Positions 10,302 to 51,507 of a stretch of 64,000 nucleotides of DNA are shown here, piece after piece. Position 1 is the first letter of the stretch, and each line of letters begins with the position of its first letter. Origin of the DNA: an uncultured Bacteroidota bacterium (lineage in GTDB: Bacteria > Bacteroidota > Bacteroidia > Flavobacteriales > Flavobacteriaceae); the NCBI GenBank assembly GCA_902598525.1, contig CACKBZ010000003.1, positions 1 to 64,000 of the forward strand, written 5' to 3'. Both the position numbers and the translations under genes were made by a program. The notes under the pieces are model-generated. The model was not told where the DNA came from and made no database searches. It saw only the letters and a list, made by a program, of their open reading frames with translations.

Positions 10302-11018
10302 TTACTTAGATACAGCTAGGTTGTATACAACAAGACCGAAACCGATTTTGTTAATAGCATCACCGACGTTGTATATAACATCCATTTGACCTGCAAGGCC
10401 ACTAAAGATACCACTATACCAACCTTCAGTTCCTGCCATATATCCGATAGGATAAATAGCCCAACCTATAAGTACGAATTTACATAGCATTTTATGCGCA
10501 CTCTCAACATTTCCACCAGCCGACTTAGCTAGTTTAGCTGCATTACCCATGAATATTTCATGAACAATTGCAAAATATGCTAGACCTGAAACTAGACCCC
10601 ATAATTGAGCATTTAATCCCATGATCCCTGCTTCACCGAAGTATCCGGTAACAAGCATTACAGTTGAAAGGAGAATAAGCTTCCATAACATGCCTTTAGT
10701 AGCACCTGATGGTTTTAAAATTAGATAAAACTCTACACACATTAGTGGTACAGTTAAGATCCAATCTACGTACCTGTAAGCAGTAGTTATAGACCCTTCA
10801 GCTGCAGCTTCTCTCATATAATAGTAGTGAAGAGCTGCGATACCAGTAATTAAAGCCGAAACTAGCATTGAAGTCTTCCACTTATCAGCTACTAAATTCA
10901 TAGCATTGAAAAAGAATAGGGTAGATGCTAACATTGCAGCAAATCCAATCCAAAAAGTGAAATCAGTCAAGCTTAAATCAGTGTTTAAAACTGGTAAAAT
11001 ACTTAATAAATTTTCCAT
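10302..11018 (-). CDS. Proteorhodopsin (light-driven proton pump type; green-tuned by Met at eBAC position 105)
   Basis: 7-TM microbial rhodopsin; RYVDWILTVPLMCVEFYLIL gives the D-T-E motif (D85,T89,E96 here), ALHYYYMREA histidine, retinal lysine K224 in DAINKIGFG. Confidence 0.98.
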   Translation of the reverse strand: MENLLSILPVLNTDLSLTDFTFWIGFAAMLASTLFFFNAMNLVADKWKTSMLVSALITGIAALHYYYMREAAAEGSITTAYRYVDWILTVPLMCVEFYLILKPSGATKGMLWKLILLSTVMLVTGYFGEAGIMGLNAQLWGLVSGLAYFAIVHEIFMGNAAKLAKSAGGNVESAHKMLCKFVLIGWAIYPIGYMAGTEGWYSGIFSGLAGQMDVIYNVGDAINKIGFGLVVYNLAVSK

Positions 11019-11127: not shown

Positions 11128-12015
11128 ATGTCAAAAATTATCATATTCAGAATAGCAGTTGCCACCTTTTTTATCATTCTAAGTTGTTTATTTTCAGTAA
11201 ATTATCAGGATATGGTTGGCTTTTCACTTATTTTATCTGTTGGATTAATTCATGGTGCAAATGACCTGTTAATAATTAAAAGAAATACAAGCTCGGATAC
11301 AAATTTTAGTCAATCTAAGAGCTTTATTAAATATTTTGGTATTGTTTTAGCAGGATTAATTTTCTTTTATTTTTTTCCTTCTTTTGCTCTAATTTCATTT
11401 ATTCTAGTATCTATTTATCATTTTGGTGAACAGCATATTGAGGCTATTCCACTGGATAAAAACTTAAAAAACGGTCGAAGATATATATCAATAATTTCTC
11501 ATGGTATACTTTTATTTACAATTATTTTTATGAATAATACTAAAGTTGTAGTAGATGTATTTTCATCATTTAATATTGTGTTTTTAAATTACAATTTCTT
11601 AATAATTATATTAATTATAACTTCAATTCTGTATGCTTCAATTTTAATAATCAAAAAAGATTTACAAACTTTTTTAATAAGTGAAATTTTATTTTTTGGT
11701 CTTTTTTATTTTTTATCAATTACCTCTTCATTAATACTATGTTTTTCAGTTTACTTTATCTTTTTTCATAGTATCTTATCTATAAAGGATCAGGTAAAAT
11801 ATATATATGGTAGTAATAATTCAAAATCTTTAAAAAGATATATAAAAAATTCACTTCCTTATTTTATTCTTGCTTTGATCTTCTTGATTTTATTTTATAT
11901 CTATACTGAAATTGATAATAATGATCTTTTACCTATTATTTTTACATTTCTTGCAGCTATAACTTTTCCTCATGTTTTGGTAATCGAAAAAATGTATAGA
12001 ACTATGAAACAATAG
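11128..12015 (+). CDS. blh: Brp/Blh-family beta-carotene 15,15'-dioxygenase (retinal biosynthesis)
   Basis: Multi-TM protein with Brp/Blh-type motifs LIHGANDLLI, SIYHFGEQHIEA, TFPHVLVIEKMY; divergent from proteorhodopsin. Confidence 0.93.
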   Translation: MSKIIIFRIAVATFFIILSCLFSVNYQDMVGFSLILSVGLIHGANDLLIIKRNTSSDTNFSQSKSFIKYFGIVLAGLIFFYFFPSFALISFILVSIYHFGEQHIEAIPLDKNLKNGRRYISIISHGILLFTIIFMNNTKVVVDVFSSFNIVFLNYNFLIIILIITSILYASILIIKKDLQTFLISEILFFGLFYFLSITSSLILCFSVYFIFFHSILSIKDQVKYIYGSNNSKSLKRYIKNSLPYFILALIFLILFYIYTEIDNNDLLPIIFTFLAAITFPHVLVIEKMYRTMKQ

Positions 12016-17611: not shown

Positions 17612-19297
17612 ATGAAAAAATATTTAATACTTATATCATTTTTAAATTCTTTAATTCTACTTCCTCAAGATAGAATTACAGGTGAGCCTTTTTCTACTAG
17701 ATCAGAAGTTATAGCATCTAACGGAATGGTTGCAACTAGTCATCCTCTTGCAACTCAAGTTGGAATTGATATCCTAAAAAAAGGTGGAAATGCAATTGAT
17801 GCTGCAATAGCTGCTAATGCTGCAATTGGATTAATGGAACCAACTGGAAATGGGATTGGTGGTGACTTGTTTGCCATTATATGGATAGAAAAAGAAAAGA
17901 AATTATATGGCCTTAATGCAAGTGGTAGATCTCCAAGTAGCTTGGATTTAGATTTCTTTAAAACTAATAACTATTCAAGTATTCCAGCATATGGTCCTCT
18001 TCCTGTTAGTGTTCCTGGATGTGTTGATGGATGGTTTGAGCTTAATGAAAGATTTGGATCAATGAAAATGAGTAGTATATTAAAACCTGCAATTGAATAC
18101 GCTGAAAATGGTTTCCCAGTCACAGAGCTCGTTTCTTATTATATGGAATTAGCATCAAATAATTTTCACAATTATCCTAACTTTAAAGAAACTTATTTTA
18201 TTAATGGAGCATCTCCAAAAAAAGGTGAACTATTTAAAAACCTTGATCTAGCAAATACACTTAAAATAATTTCAAATGAGGGTAGGAAAGGATTTTATGA
18301 AGGCGAAATAGCAAATATAATTTCTACATTTATTCAAGAACAAGGTGGATTCCTTTCATATGAAGATTTAAAAAATCATAGATCAGAATGGGTTGAACCT
18401 GTATCAACAAACTATAGAGGTTATGATGTTTGGGAGCTCCCACCAAATGGTCAAGGAATAGCAGCTCTTCAAATACTTAATCTTCTTGAAGGATTTGATA
18501 TAAAATCAATGGGCTTTGGGTCAGCTGAATATATACATCATTTAGTTGAAGCCAAGAAAATTGCTTTTGCAGATAGAGCAAAATATTATGCAGATACAGA
18601 TTTTAATCAAATCCCCACCCAATATTTAATCTCAAAGGAATACTCTGATAAAAGAAGGCCTGAGATTAATCCAAATCAAGCAGCTGAATCTGTTACAGCC
18701 GCAAACCTTGAAAATGGTGATACAATTTATTTAACAACAGCTGATAGTAGCGGTAATATGGTATCTTTAATTCAAAGTAACTACAGAGGTATGGGTTCAG
18801 GTATGGTTCCTCCAGGTCTTGGTTTTATGCTTCAAGATAGAGGTGAGCTTTTTTCACTTGAGGAAGGACATTTTAATGTTTATGAGCCAAATAAAAGACC
18901 CTTTCATACTATAATACCCGCTTTTATTACAAAAGATAATAAACCTTATGTAAGCTTTGGACTAATGGGAGGCGCTATGCAACCTCAAGGTCATGCCCAA
19001 ATTGTAATTAACCTGATTGACTTTGGAATGAATCTTCAAGAGGCTGGTGATGCTCCAAGAATTAGACACCAGTCTGATGAACAGCCAACAGGAGGAGTTA
19101 TGAATAATGGTGGGGAGTTAGCTTTAGAGCAAGGCTTTGATTTTAAAGAAATTCGAAAATTAATTAAGAAGGGACATAAAATTATATATGATCTAGGCTC
19201 ATTTGGTGGCTATCAAGCTATAAAGATTGATTATGAAAATAAAATATACTATGGCGCCTCCGAATCAAGAAAAGATGGAAGCGCTATTGGATATTAG
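17612..19297 (+). CDS. ggt: Gamma-glutamyltransferase
   Basis: GGNAIDAAIAANA, GNGIGGDLFAI, TIYLTTADSSGNMVSLIQSNY (catalytic Thr region), FGLMGGAMQPQGH; signal peptide. Confidence 0.94.
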   Translation: MKKYLILISFLNSLILLPQDRITGEPFSTRSEVIASNGMVATSHPLATQVGIDILKKGGNAIDAAIAANAAIGLMEPTGNGIGGDLFAIIWIEKEKKLYGLNASGRSPSSLDLDFFKTNNYSSIPAYGPLPVSVPGCVDGWFELNERFGSMKMSSILKPAIEYAENGFPVTELVSYYMELASNNFHNYPNFKETYFINGASPKKGELFKNLDLANTLKIISNEGRKGFYEGEIANIISTFIQEQGGFLSYEDLKNHRSEWVEPVSTNYRGYDVWELPPNGQGIAALQILNLLEGFDIKSMGFGSAEYIHHLVEAKKIAFADRAKYYADTDFNQIPTQYLISKEYSDKRRPEINPNQAAESVTAANLENGDTIYLTTADSSGNMVSLIQSNYRGMGSGMVPPGLGFMLQDRGELFSLEEGHFNVYEPNKRPFHTIIPAFITKDNKPYVSFGLMGGAMQPQGHAQIVINLIDFGMNLQEAGDAPRIRHQSDEQPTGGVMNNGGELALEQGFDFKEIRKLIKKGHKIIYDLGSFGGYQAIKIDYENKIYYGASESRKDGSAIGY

Positions 19298-45471: not shown

Positions 45472-45485
45472 TCGTACAATTTTTT

Positions 45486-45514
45486 CAAATATAATTAAAT
45501 ACTAACATTACAAA
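45486..45514 (-). promoter_or_regulatory. Putative Bacteroidota-type promoter of the M1 peptidase gene
   Basis: Minus strand TTTG - 17 nt - TATATTTG, 14 nt before the ATG at 45471. Confidence 0.6.
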
Positions 45515-45553
45515 TGTTAAAGAATTCAAAATCAATATATTTATAAAAAAATA

Positions 45554-48070
45554 GTGATGAAAAAAATTGTAATATTTAGTTTATTGTTAACATGGACTTT
45601 GTCCTCTCAAGATTATTATTATTCAAAATATGCTCCATTTAATGAGAGTATAAAGACTCCAGAGGAATTTCTTGGATATCCAATTGGCGAAATGCATACA
45701 AGGCATGACTTAATAGTATCATATATGCAGTACTTATCGAATATTTCTAAAAAAGCTCAAATTTTTTATTATGGAAATACATATGAAAAGAGAAAACTAT
45801 TAATTCTTGCAATATCATCACCGGAAAAAATTTCTAATCTAGAAGAAATTCGGGACGAACATATTTCTTACATAGATCCAGACCATCCGAATTATAATAA
45901 TCAAGCTAAACCTGAAGATTTTCCTGTAATTATAAATTTAGGATACGGTGTGCATGGAAATGAACCTTCGAGTTCAGAGGCAGCTCTTCTTACAGCATAT
46001 ACCTTAGTAAGTTCTGAGTCAGATGAAATTAAAAATTATTTATCTCAGTCTATTATTCTATTAGATCCAACAATTAATCCAGATGGAAGAGATAGACATA
46101 CACATTGGGCTAATACTTATAAAGGATCTCCTATTGTTGCAGATCCTCAGGATGCAGAACATAATGAGTACTGGCCAGGAGGAAGAACTAATCACTATTG
46201 GTTTGATTTAAATAGAGACTGGTATCTTGGAATCCATCCAGAAAGTAGAGGTAAACTCAAATGGTATCATTCATGGCAGCCTAATGTTACAACAGACTTC
46301 CATGAAATGGGATCAAACAGTACATATTTTTTTGTTCCATTTAAGCCAAATGGATCTTTTGAACCAGTAATTCCAAAAGAGAATTATGATTATTTTAATT
46401 TTTTATTTGGCTCATACTATGCCAAAGCCTTAGATGAGATAGGGACCCTATATTTTACAAGAGAAGTATATGATAGAACATACCCAGGATATGGATCTTC
46501 TTATCCAGATTATTTGGGTGGAATAGGAATACTATTTGAACAAGCAAGTTCAAGAGGGCATATACAGGAAACTCAGTTTGGAGAAATTACTTTTCCTTTC
46601 ACAATAAGAAATCAATACATATCTGGAATGACTACTGTAATGGCCTCCGTTGAAAATAAAGAATCACTTAAAGACTATCAAGGAAAGTTTTTTAAATCTG
46701 CGATGACTGAGGCAAACCAAAAGAAAGTCAAAGGATATATATTTAATCTAGGAAAGGATAAAAATAAAACCAAAGCATTTATTGATAAGTTAAAAATACA
46801 CAACATAAATATTCTTAGAGATGGAAAAAAATTTTATGTGCCCACTGCACAAAAAAATTATAGGTTGGTTCGAACTTTTTTTGAGACTCAAGAAAAATAC
46901 AGAGATAGTGTCTTCTATGATGCTTCAGCCTGGTCTATGGCAAATATTTATGACATTGACTACTCCTCATCAAATAAAAACTTTACAGGTGATGAAGTAA
47001 ATAGCATAGATGATCTTTTTGAAGTCAATAAATTTCCTAAATCAAATTATGCATATATAATAGACTCACAGGACTACAACATTCCTGCAATTATTTATAA
47101 TCTTTTAGATAATGAAATATTTACATCATCTGCATTTAAGCCACTTACAATTAGAACATCTGATGGAATTAAAGATTTTAATTATGGATCTATTATAATT
47201 CCATTATCTATACAAAAGAAATTAAACTCAGATGAACTTTATAAAAAAATGCAAAAGATTCAAAAAAAGTATAATGTAGACATATACTCAGTCGAAAGTG
47301 GTTTAAGTTCGTCTGGAGTTGATTTAGGAAGTAGGAATGTTTTACCACTAAATAAACCCAGAGCAATGATGCTTATTGGAACGGGAGTAAGGGCATATGA
47401 AGCAGGAGAAGTTTGGCACTTATTAGATCAAAGAGTTGGTATGCCAATCTCAAAAATACCACTGAGAAACCTTGATAATGTATCAATGGATAAATATAAT
47501 GTACTTGTATTGGTATCAGGAAACTATAAGCTATCTAATAATCAAATTGAAAAAATAAAAAAATGGGCTGAGAGTGGTAATACAATTATTAGTATTGGTT
47601 CAGGTTCCAAATTTTTAATTGATAACAAAATAGTTGATGAGAGTATTGTTGAAAAGAAAGAATCCAATGTAATTAGTTACCTTGATTATGGAGATGCAGC
47701 AGAGAACAGGGGTAAGGAACAAGTTGGTGGAGTTATACTAAAATCTAAAATTGATTTAACTCATCCACTATCTTTTGGATATTCAGATAATTCGCTACCG
47801 GTATATAAAAACAACTCAATCTGGTTAAAACCATCAATTAATGAATATTCATCTGTAGTAAGATATTCAGAAAATGCTCTAATAGATGGATTTCTTTCTG
47901 AGAGTAATAAAAAAATACTTAGTGAATCAGTTTCTTTGGTTGTCTCAAAAATAGGAAATGGGATTGCTGTAATGTTTTCTGATAATCCAAATTTTAGAGG
48001 AGCCTGGTATGGAACTAATAGACTTTTTTTAAATGCAATTTTTCTAGGAGATAGAATTTATATCCCTTAA
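45554..48070 (+). CDS. M14-family zinc carboxypeptidase, exported
   Basis: Zinc motif GVHGNEPSSSEAALL, NPDGRDRHTHWAN, FDLNRDWYLG, TDFHEMG, Glu in ILFEQASSRG; signal peptide. Confidence 0.92.
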   Translation: MMKKIVIFSLLLTWTLSSQDYYYSKYAPFNESIKTPEEFLGYPIGEMHTRHDLIVSYMQYLSNISKKAQIFYYGNTYEKRKLLILAISSPEKISNLEEIRDEHISYIDPDHPNYNNQAKPEDFPVIINLGYGVHGNEPSSSEAALLTAYTLVSSESDEIKNYLSQSIILLDPTINPDGRDRHTHWANTYKGSPIVADPQDAEHNEYWPGGRTNHYWFDLNRDWYLGIHPESRGKLKWYHSWQPNVTTDFHEMGSNSTYFFVPFKPNGSFEPVIPKENYDYFNFLFGSYYAKALDEIGTLYFTREVYDRTYPGYGSSYPDYLGGIGILFEQASSRGHIQETQFGEITFPFTIRNQYISGMTTVMASVENKESLKDYQGKFFKSAMTEANQKKVKGYIFNLGKDKNKTKAFIDKLKIHNINILRDGKKFYVPTAQKNYRLVRTFFETQEKYRDSVFYDASAWSMANIYDIDYSSSNKNFTGDEVNSIDDLFEVNKFPKSNYAYIIDSQDYNIPAIIYNLLDNEIFTSSAFKPLTIRTSDGIKDFNYGSIIIPLSIQKKLNSDELYKKMQKIQKKYNVDIYSVESGLSSSGVDLGSRNVLPLNKPRAMMLIGTGVRAYEAGEVWHLLDQRVGMPISKIPLRNLDNVSMDKYNVLVLVSGNYKLSNNQIEKIKKWAESGNTIISIGSGSKFLIDNKIVDESIVEKKESNVISYLDYGDAAENRGKEQVGGVILKSKIDLTHPLSFGYSDNSLPVYKNNSIWLKPSINEYSSVVRYSENALIDGFLSESNKKILSESVSLVVSKIGNGIAVMFSDNPNFRGAWYGTNRLFLNAIFLGDRIYIP

Positions 48071-49260
48071 TGAAATGGGTTAAAGACATAGGGCCTGGAG
48101 TATTAATTGCAGCAGCATTTATCGGACCTGGAACTGTGACTTTATGCACCATTGCAGGTGTATCTTATGGCTATTCTTTAATTTGGGCTATAATTTTATC
48201 AATTTTTGCCACAATATTTTTACAAGAATTGTCTCTTCGTATAGGATTAGCTACAAAGATGAATGTTGCAGAAGTAATAAGGAAATCTGTTAAGTCAGTT
48301 TTTTTAAATAGGTTTTTGCTGATTTTAATAGTATCATCTATTTTAATCGGAAATGCTGCATATGAAGCAGGAAATATTACAGGTGCATCTCTTGGTATAT
48401 CAGGAATAATTAATTATGAGGCAATTAATAATATACCTCTTTTTATAGGAATAATTGCTTTTGTAATTCTTTACCAAGGTAACTACAAGATCATAGAAAG
48501 ATTCTTAATTATTTTGGTTTTACTAATGAGTCTCTCATTTTTTCTTACTGCAATAATTACAAGACCTGATATAAGTGCTCTTCTTGCTGGTATATTTACA
48601 CCTAAGGTTAATGAAAAAAGTATATTAATTGTCCTTGGATTGATAGGGACAACTGTAGTTCCCTACAATATATTTTTACACTCATCACTTGTAATTGAAA
48701 AATGGGGTTCAATAAAAAAGCTTAAAACAGCAAGAATTGAGAGTTTCATATCAATTTTTCTGGGAGGTATCGTATCTCTATCAATAATTGTTACTGCAGC
48801 ATCTGTAAATACTCAAGATGTTGACAGTATCATTGATTTGGCTAAGGGTTTAGAACCTTTATACGGTAAATTTGCGATTTATTTTCTAGGAATTGGGCTT
48901 TTTGCATCAGGTATAACATCTTCAATTACTGCCCCTTTGGCAGCATCGTACGTAGCAAAAAGTTGTTTTGGTTGGAAAGGATCAATGAAAAGTACAAAAT
49001 TTAGACTAGTTTGGATATTAGTTTTACTATTTGGAGTTATTGTATCAATGATTGATATCAATCCGATCGAAATAATAAAGTTTGCTCAGTTTTCTAACAG
49101 TTTACTTCTTCCAATAATTGCAATTATTCTTTTGTGGATAGTAAATAATAATAGAATCACTGGAAGTCAATATAGTTACAATTATCAGAATATCTTTGGA
49201 GCTATTATTATAATAATAAGTATTGTCTTAGGAGCTAGAGGAATTATTTCAATTTTCTAA
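48070..49260 (+). CDS. Nramp-fold (SLC11-related) transporter lacking the canonical metal-binding motif
   Basis: FIGPGTVTLCTIAGVSYGYSLIWAIIL...LRIGLAT aligns by eye with Nramp TM1; TTVVPYNIFLHSSLV with TM6. Confidence 0.88.
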   Translation: MKWVKDIGPGVLIAAAFIGPGTVTLCTIAGVSYGYSLIWAIILSIFATIFLQELSLRIGLATKMNVAEVIRKSVKSVFLNRFLLILIVSSILIGNAAYEAGNITGASLGISGIINYEAINNIPLFIGIIAFVILYQGNYKIIERFLIILVLLMSLSFFLTAIITRPDISALLAGIFTPKVNEKSILIVLGLIGTTVVPYNIFLHSSLVIEKWGSIKKLKTARIESFISIFLGGIVSLSIIVTAASVNTQDVDSIIDLAKGLEPLYGKFAIYFLGIGLFASGITSSITAPLAASYVAKSCFGWKGSMKSTKFRLVWILVLLFGVIVSMIDINPIEIIKFAQFSNSLLLPIIAIILLWIVNNNRITGSQYSYNYQNIFGAIIIIISIVLGARGIISIF

Positions 49261-49976
49261 TGATTAATATTAACTGTGATCTAGGTGAGGGGTTAAATAA
49301 TGAGCATATATTAATGCCCTTAATAAACTCATGTAATATTGCATGCGGAGGACATGCAGGTGATTCTCAAAGTATGATTGAATGTGTTGAAATTTCAATA
49401 AGAAATAATGTTAACATAGGAGCACATCCCTCTTACCCTGATAAAGAAAATTTTGGAAGGAAGAAAATTGATATTTCAAGATCTGAACTTCATGATAGTA
49501 TATTAAATCAGATTGAAAATCTAAATTCAATTGCATCATCATACGGAATAAAACTTCATCATATTAAAGCACATGGAGCATTGTACAATCAGATGTTTAA
49601 GGATAAGGATTTATCAAATTTTTATTTAGATACATTAAATAATTTTAAAGATAAATGTTATGTATATGTTCCTTTTAATTCTGAAATTGAAAAGTCTGCT
49701 TTAAGAAAAGGATTTAAAATTATGTATGAAGCCTTTGGTGATAGAAGATACAATGATGATTTATCTTTAGTATCTAGAGAAAGAATAGATGCTCTAATTA
49801 ATACTCCAAATTTAGTTATTGATCAAATTACTAATATTAAAGATTTAAAAAAGATCAAATCTATCAATGGCATATATAAATCAATAAAGGCAGATACTAT
49901 CTGTATTCATTCTGATACGGATAATTCAATTGAAATACTTAGGAAGATTAATGAGGTTTTTAAAAATAAAGAATAA
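49260..49976 (+). CDS. pxpA: 5-oxoprolinase subunit A (LamB/YcsF family)
   Basis: ININCDLGEGLNNE...SCNIACGGHAGDSQSM, HIKAHGALYNQM. Confidence 0.96.
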   Translation: MININCDLGEGLNNEHILMPLINSCNIACGGHAGDSQSMIECVEISIRNNVNIGAHPSYPDKENFGRKKIDISRSELHDSILNQIENLNSIASSYGIKLHHIKAHGALYNQMFKDKDLSNFYLDTLNNFKDKCYVYVPFNSEIEKSALRKGFKIMYEAFGDRRYNDDLSLVSRERIDALINTPNLVIDQITNIKDLKKIKSINGIYKSIKADTICIHSDTDNSIEILRKINEVFKNKE

Positions 49977-50677
49977 TGCAATTTTTTAATTTAAATGAAA
50001 ATACATTTTTGATTACCTGGAATCAAAATCTTGATTCAAATTTAACAAACCTTCTCACATCGTATCGAAATATAATTATTTCTATTTGTGGAGATGATAT
50101 CCAAGATTGTGTTCAATCTATAAAATCTCTTTTAGTTATAACTCATAATAATGGATCCTCAATAAAAGAGATAATTGAAAAAATTAAAATGATAGATCCT
50201 AAGAAAATCAATATTAAAAACAAAAAGATCAAAGTATGGAAAATTCCTATTTGTTATGATCTAGAATTTGCTCCTGATATTAAAGCTGTATCTGATTTAA
50301 ATAATATCTCAATTCAAGATTTGATTGAAATTCATTTATCTAAAACATATGATGTTTTATCAATGGGATTTTTACCTGGATTTATGTATTTAGGTAAAAC
50401 TGATAATAGAATCCATTGTGAGAGAAAAGTAAAACCTTCTTTAAATATTAAAAAAGGTTCAATCGGACTTGCACTTAATCAGACTTGTATTTACCCCACT
50501 GAAAGCCCAGGTGGTTGGAATATAATTGGTATTACACCTATTGAATTATTTAATCTTCAGTCTAATTCCCCATGTTTTAGTAAACCTGGAGACAAAATTC
50601 AATTCGTAGAAATATCTAAATCCCAATATGTGTCTTCTTTAAAAAATCCAGATAAACCAGATTTTATTGAGTTATGA
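49976..50677 (+). CDS. pxpB: 5-oxoprolinase subunit B (KipI family)
   Basis: IPICYDLEFAPDIKAVS, MGFLPGFMYLG, SIGLALNQTCIYPTESPGGWNIIG. Confidence 0.96.
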   Translation: MQFFNLNENTFLITWNQNLDSNLTNLLTSYRNIIISICGDDIQDCVQSIKSLLVITHNNGSSIKEIIEKIKMIDPKKINIKNKKIKVWKIPICYDLEFAPDIKAVSDLNNISIQDLIEIHLSKTYDVLSMGFLPGFMYLGKTDNRIHCERKVKPSLNIKKGSIGLALNQTCIYPTESPGGWNIIGITPIELFNLQSNSPCFSKPGDKIQFVEISKSQYVSSLKNPDKPDFIEL

Positions 50678-51507
50678 TAAAAGTTATTTCAAAAGGTCTC
50701 TATACAACAATTCAAGACAAAGGAAGATTTGGATATAGAAATATAGGAGTTCCATCCTCAGGGTATATGGACAGTGAAAGTGCTGAAACTGCAAATCTGA
50801 TTATCAATAACCCTAAAGATAATCCCTTAATTGAGGTAACACTTATTGGACCAACCTTAGAGTTTGAAAAATCAGCAGTTATATGTATTACAGGAGGAGA
50901 ATTTAGTCCCACACTAAATGATATTAAAATTAGTTCATATTCGGCTATTGAGGTTAATAAAGGAGATATACTTAAAATAAATAATTCTTCAATTGGCTCA
51001 AGATGCTATATATCTATCCAAGGAACTATTATTTCTGATACAATTCTTGGAAGTAAATCATTTTATCATCAGATAACTAATTCTAATATAATTGAAGATG
51101 GGGATATATTTTTATTTAAAAAGAATATAAGAACACTAGAACAAAAATATACTCACAAAAAATTTGAATTAAATAAAACTATAAATGTTTTCAGAGGTCC
51201 AGAATTTGAATTTTTGAGTAAGGAATCCATTAAGACTCTATTTAATGAGGAATTTTCAATTGGGATTAATAATAGAATGGCATATAATTTATTAGAGAAA
51301 ATTCAGGATGGAGTTAATTCAATAATATCTTCTGGAGTTATTCCTGGAACAGTTCAACTAACTCCATCAGGCAATATAATAATTCTTCACAGAGACTCTC
51401 AGACAACAGGAGGGTACCCCAGAATTCTTCAGTTAAATGAAAAATCTTTAAATGATTTAGCACAACTAAGAACAGGAGATAATATAAGATTCAAATTACT
51501 GAATTAG
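50674..51507 (+). CDS. pxpC: 5-oxoprolinase subunit C (KipA/biotin-dependent carboxyltransferase-like family)
   Basis: ISKGLYTTIQDKGRFGYRNIGVPSSGYMD, RVFRGPEF-like segment NVFRGPEFEFL, GVIPGTVQLTPSGNIIILHRDSQTTGGYPRI. Confidence 0.96.
   Translation: MIKVISKGLYTTIQDKGRFGYRNIGVPSSGYMDSESAETANLIINNPKDNPLIEVTLIGPTLEFEKSAVICITGGEFSPTLNDIKISSYSAIEVNKGDILKINNSSIGSRCYISIQGTIISDTILGSKSFYHQITNSNIIEDGDIFLFKKNIRTLEQKYTHKKFELNKTINVFRGPEFEFLSKESIKTLFNEEFSIGINNRMAYNLLEKIQDGVNSIISSGVIPGTVQLTPSGNIIILHRDSQTTGGYPRILQLNEKSLNDLAQLRTGDNIRFKLLN

Follow-up and report, generated by a model that had tools for sequence, protein, structure and literature searches.

A genus-wide M14 carboxypeptidase slot beside an orphan-type Nramp gene and pxpABC in Flavobacteriaceae: a possible pyroglutamate acquisition operon

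Described pxp operons and the layout of the unit

Among described systems, the pxp operons of Corynebacterium glutamicum and Bacillus subtilis are the closest to the locus studied here, and both include an Nramp-family gene. The C. glutamicum pxpTABC operon has the order transporter-pxpA-pxpB-pxpC, encodes a PxpABC 5-oxoprolinase and is accompanied by a GntR regulator; its Nramp-family protein PxpT is 50% identical to YcsG and is required for growth on 5-oxoproline (PMC13274462). In the B. subtilis pxp (ycsF/kipIA) operon, ycsG lies downstream of pxpA (PMC13274462), and its Nramp-family product YcsG has been reported to be a manganese importer (PMC10448178). The literature on pxp-operon Nramp proteins is divided, with manganese proposed in one case and 5-oxoproline in the other.

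The window, that is, the whole stretch of 64,000 nucleotides that was analysed, belongs to a 1.17 Mb draft genome (79% complete) of a small marine, uncultured member of Flavobacteriaceae. Its unit shares with C. glutamicum the Nramp-family transporter, the PxpABC 5-oxoprolinase and the order of these four genes, and with B. subtilis the presence of an Nramp-family gene within the operon. However, the transporter gene stands upstream of pxpA and not downstream as in B. subtilis, its product is far from YcsG-type proteins, unlike PxpT, and the unit has an M14 peptidase gene, whereas the C. glutamicum operon has no peptidase (PMC13274462) and no M14 gene is described for that of B. subtilis.

All five genes lie on the forward strand. 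The first encodes an exported M14 zinc carboxypeptidase of type A (837 aa; 45557..48070; assigned by ORF, Pfam Peptidase_M14 and fold), followed by an Nramp-fold transporter of the metal-site-less 'orphan' type, a predicted 5-oxoproline importer (48070..49260; Pfam Nramp, gene context and marker residues), and by genes for the 5-oxoprolinase subunits PxpA (LamB/YcsF; 49260..49976; Pfam LamB_YcsF), PxpB (49976..50677; Pfam CT_C_D) and PxpC (50674..51507; Pfam CT_A_B), three subunits which are encoded together and conserved in the genus loci. Successive genes overlap by 1, 1, 1 and 4 bases, with the sequence TAATG at 48070, 49260 and 49976, and ATGA at 50674-50677. The original prediction of a single co-directional unit including PxpABC was borne out by the ORFs, by four overlapping junctions that lie where it had placed them, and by the Pfam domains; its M14 reading frame is present and ends at 48070 as proposed, while the start is likely the ATG at 45557 and not the GTG at 45554.

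Gene overlaps alone are weak evidence for a unit, because overlaps are common in this compact genome, where 11 of 38 co-directional gene pairs within the window overlap. Stronger evidence than the overlaps themselves is the invariant junction between M14 and the transporter gene (48068..48072, forward strand), whose 1-base TAATG overlap is shared without change by all 21 genus loci read; across the genus, variation is seen at the pxpA/pxpB and pxpB/pxpC junctions. The five-gene unit is almost certainly real and conserved. Its predicted extent holds for the window, but relatives often have a longer unit, since in many genomes of the genus an extra exported hydrolase gene, encoding either a beta-propeller/amidohydrolase protein (about 1125 aa) or else a Met-zincin (about 850 aa), lies at most 15 bases from M14 or overlaps it. 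The window and genomes G015 and G022 are without this gene, and in the window its place is an intergenic stretch (45472..45556) between M14 and a divergent M1 peptidase gene; depending on the genome, the peptidase encoded by the divergent gene beyond belongs to M1 or to M28. What lies directly upstream of M14 thus varies among genomes of the genus, while the position of M14 stays. A simple Bacteroidetes promoter pattern was absent before M14 and present for the divergent M1 gene.

At not quite an even chance, the unit would be an operon for pyroglutamate (5-oxoproline) acquisition, leading from the M14 peptidase through import to hydrolysis by PxpABC to glutamate.

The M14 gene and its place in the genus

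The M14 protein carries a signal peptide, with a Gln after the presumed cleavage site (...TLSS|QDYY), and this residue, Q18, is nearly invariant among relatives. Residues H133, E136, H249, N219-R220 and E328 are invariant in 30 M14 sequences, and we take them to be the carboxypeptidase A zinc ligands HxxE...H, the NR carboxylate pair and the catalytic Glu. An AlphaFold model (mean pLDDT 79, with poor confidence in the catalytic loops) matched carboxypeptidases A, N, T, B and others in a fold search. The protein shares with the carboxypeptidase A/B/N/T kind the fold and the catalytic and carboxylate-binding motif residues, but differs from it in its size (about 840 aa, a long C-terminal region included) and in sequence, as phmmer gave no match to PDB chains at E 0.01; NCBIfam gave no name for it.

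The original prediction had made M14 the first member of the unit and would have been refuted by its absence from this position in close relatives. It is not absent: M14 lies directly upstream of the transporter gene in 22 of 22 assembled genus loci (20 fetched loci, that of G023 and the window), in a few of which the contig begins within M14. The pxpA gene is present in 21 of the 24 other genomes of the genus. Joint loss of M14 and pxp in G003, G008 and G009 was considered as evidence and rejected; these genomes are uninformative because the contig ends at the locus in G008 and G009, and G003 is 54% complete.

Outside the genus, the transporter gene precedes pxpA in 33 of 40 pxp loci from other genera of the family, where a DUF2891 lipoprotein gene is often first, and M14 precedes the transporter gene or pxpA in none of the 40. 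In a collection of about 85,000 species genomes, the transporter gene adjoins M14 in six of the 80 best M14 loci, all six with 65-82% M14 identity and the flanking genes of this genus; linkage to the pxp transporter was found in none of the remaining 74, and an exported amidohydrolase gene follows M14 in 50 of the best 80. Because none of the 40 pxp loci of other genera carries M14 and the six linked M14 loci are all genus-like, the link of M14 to pxp arose, as far as these loci show, within this genus. The same M14 subfamily occurs in dozens of further genera without pxp genes nearby and is therefore not specific to 5-oxoproline.

Two deep M14 types exist in the genus, A and B, being 73-82% and 65-68% identical to the window M14, respectively, and three genomes carry type A at the pxp locus and type B elsewhere, unlinked. 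On the pxpTABC tree, at least six changes between A and B are required, all forced by well-supported branches, and a single origin is rejected (p=1e-4); the tree of flanking genes forces at least four. In the close pair G004 and G019, DNA identity is about 70% up to the TAATG shared by M14 and the transporter gene and jumps there to about 95%, and in G013 and G021 it rises inside the last 100 bases of M14. These jumps at the M14 end indicate that M14 was replaced as a block while its slot was retained. As to where the types differ, 8 of 17 fixed A/B differences fall in M14 residues 230-325, near the active site (p=0.001), a range picked after the fact, so that this clustering is a lead only. 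The repeated replacement of M14 in a kept slot favours a functional link to pxpTABC; it supports such a link without proving it, because allelic recombination alone could keep the junction and nearly all genomes of the genus are drafts.

Joint need, and not a shared substrate, might also account for the arrangement: M14 may be a general peptide-scavenging carboxypeptidase whose operon with pxpTABC reflects a joint supply of nitrogen and amino acids needed simultaneously. This is a possible though somewhat doubtful explanation, in keeping with a locus rich in exported peptidases (M1 or M28 on the divergent side, Met-zincin or amidohydrolase upstream), with the life of the M14 subfamily apart from pxp elsewhere and with the second, unlinked copy in the three genomes mentioned above. 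However, it leaves unexplained why M14 holds its position in every one of the 22 loci despite at least six replacements, while the upstream hydrolase is not kept. A further proposal, that the ancestor of the genus came to have M14 beside pxpTABC through genome compaction and that allelic recombination through conserved flanks has kept the junction since, draws on the frequency of overlaps in the window and on the capacity of homologous exchange to preserve a junction without selection; yet the unit is unbroken although divergence within the genus reaches about 30% in the transporter protein and about 50% in PxpB, and these same genomes do differ in the gene that directly precedes M14, which makes a purely neutral neighbourhood improbable.

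The transporter and its likely substrate

In Slc11/Nramp proteins, metal is bound through the motifs DPGN in TM1 and MPH in TM6, and DraNramp binds manganese via D56, N59 and M230 (PMC6398981). The window transporter reads GPGT and VPY instead. The same holds widely in Flavobacteriaceae (n=53), as the D site is G and the N site is T or S in 52 of 52 readable sequences, the M site is V in 52 of 53 and the H site is Y in 53 of 53. The MntH model scored far below its cut-off (161 versus 430 bits). The protein also has a Y in helix 3 with an N four residues away, and helix 6 contains T, V and Y; these substituents are the ones with which the 'orphan' outgroup of Nramp has been mimicked (PMC10606218). 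Judged by these marker residues, the transporter carries the marks of the uncharacterised 'orphan' Slc11/Nramp outgroup, with which it shares the markers and the lack of the metal-site D, N and M (PMC10606218, PMC9606685). The Nramp outgroup has been viewed as possibly bridging metal carriers and those of non-metal substrates (PMC4072509).

The expectation that the Nramp-like protein is of YcsG type did not hold, because it is 19-20% identical to the YcsG-like Nramp proteins that Klebsiella and Fusobacterium encode next to pxpA, and its markers are those of another subfamily. These two comparators are 46% identical to each other and are without metal motifs too; measured against them, the window transporter is not close and would fall outside the YcsG/PxpT subfamily. 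No relatives of it were detected at E 1e-4 in the plasmid pxp loci of Vibrio, Burkholderia, Ensifer, Deinococcus and Embleya.

Gene context points to the substrate. The transporter gene is present in 16 of 21 genomes of the family that bear pxpA and in none of nine that lack it. Haloarchaeal relatives, 39-43% identical and with the same helix 1 signature, were inspected on six plasmids; on five of these, they are encoded directly before hydantoinase/oxoprolinase HyuA/HyuB genes. One transporter type thus accompanies two kinds of ATP-dependent lactam hydrolase, PxpABC in flavobacteria and hydantoinase/oxoprolinase in haloarchaea, which to our knowledge are not related to each other. Since these two kinds of gene adjoin it, 5-oxoproline is the likeliest substrate, and the transporter quite probably carries it, in agreement with what had been predicted. 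The link to lactamase genes is not universal, because relatives in Pseudoalteromonas and Qipengyuania and one haloarchaeal copy stand without them. It is very unlikely that the protein instead imports manganese or another divalent metal for PxpA or M14, the operon serving to detoxify internally formed 5-oxoproline: manganese import was reported for B. subtilis YcsG (PMC10448178), and Nramp-related NrmT proteins carry magnesium and an outgroup protein probably manganese (PMC4072509), but here none of the D, N and M ligands is retained, DraNramp D56 mutants do not transport metal (PMC6398981), and the transporter also accompanies the second kind of lactam hydrolase in archaea.

Pyroglutamate caps and their possible recovery

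For the acquisition of pyroglutamate by this operon, a large source may lie in exported proteins, the cell's own or those of dead neighbours. In Bacteroidota, removal of the signal peptide leaves most exported proteins with an N-terminal Gln, which is cyclised to pyroglutamate (PMC5837995), and the proteins are stabilised by this cap, presumably because it keeps aminopeptidases off (PMC10653852). A simple scan (not SignalP) covered seven plausible SPI-like exported proteins of the window, and five of them, M14 included, fit this Q-rule; an eighth match of the scan, carB, was a false positive. Of the 24 other genomes of the genus, 17 have genes for plant-type glutaminyl cyclase, and the window's own draft, 79% complete, gave no match to them. 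Four M28-family matches in this draft were considered for the cyclase role, and no cyclase was identified among them; one was compared with PDB and resembles aminopeptidases. Pyroglutamyl peptidase I was found in none of 16 genus genomes searched.

The chain that leads from the specificity of M14 to the import of 5-oxoproline is inferred. The M14 enzyme would act in the periplasm or outside the cell, trimming peptides from the C terminus, so that pyroglutamate-capped peptides, which are closed to ordinary aminopeptidases, would be cut from the other end and free 5-oxoproline would be released at the last cut. The orphan-type Nramp protein would then import 5-oxoproline, and PxpABC would convert it to glutamate with ATP. 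That M14 acts on pyroglutamyl peptides is a tentative assignment, somewhat short of an even chance.

In the open-licence literature searched, no paper was found to connect PxpABC with the Q-rule, or a pxp operon with an M14 gene. What is new lies above all in the slot that M14 holds throughout the genus, with its repeated replacement, and in the evidence that gene context gives on the orphan-type Nramp protein. It is possible, though on balance doubtful, that the members of the orphan Nramp outgroup import 5-oxoproline or related lactams and that the metal transporters arose beside them; in this genus, one such importer would be coupled to a carboxypeptidase in a route dedicated to recycling pyroglutamate caps. 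The transporter bears on the dispute over whether Nramp proteins of pxp operons carry manganese or 5-oxoproline. If the proposal is true, it would give the orphan outgroup a testable substrate and would bear on a possible origin of metal transporters from carriers of non-metal solutes. For Bacteroidota, it would supply the missing end of the Q-rule, namely the recovery of the pyroglutamate that is put on most of their exported proteins.

Replacement of the M14 gene at the pxp locus

The first gene of the unit (window 45557-48070) encodes a type A M14 carboxypeptidase, and at this one locus the two deep sequence types of M14, A and B, have been swapped at least six times (fetched loci L034, L047, L041, L049 and L113-L115), with a breakpoint that coincides with the M14 stop codon or lies close to it. 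The fixed differences between the two types seem to cluster in the vicinity of the active site.

M14 genes away from pxp genes

In other genera, a conserved exported amidohydrolase of ~525 aa is encoded 3' of M14 in most cases (L096-L110, L121-L195), and is a likely partner enzyme. Within the genus, a PIG-L-like deacetylase gene adjoins the unlinked type B copies in genomes G022, G010 and G021 (L113, L114 and L115).

The transporter gene and its neighbours

On haloarchaeal plasmids (L196, L200, L201, L202, L204), hydantoinase/oxoprolinase A and B genes directly follow a metal-site-less Nramp homologue, and a gene for a ribbon-helix-helix protein lies upstream. In other Flavobacteriaceae (L054-L090), a DUF2891 lipoprotein gene is often first in the pxpTABC run, upstream of the transporter gene. 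In G018, a congener (L046, two-contig assembly), a stop or frameshift interrupts the transporter gene.

Other genes of the window

A rhodopsin-like gene (window 10302-11018) and an adjoining Blh-type carotene dioxygenase-like gene (window 11128-12015) were recognized by sequence reading only. The same reading revealed a gamma-glutamyltransferase-like exported protein (window 17612-19297), encoded 26 kb from the unit, which could contribute to gamma-glutamyl metabolism.
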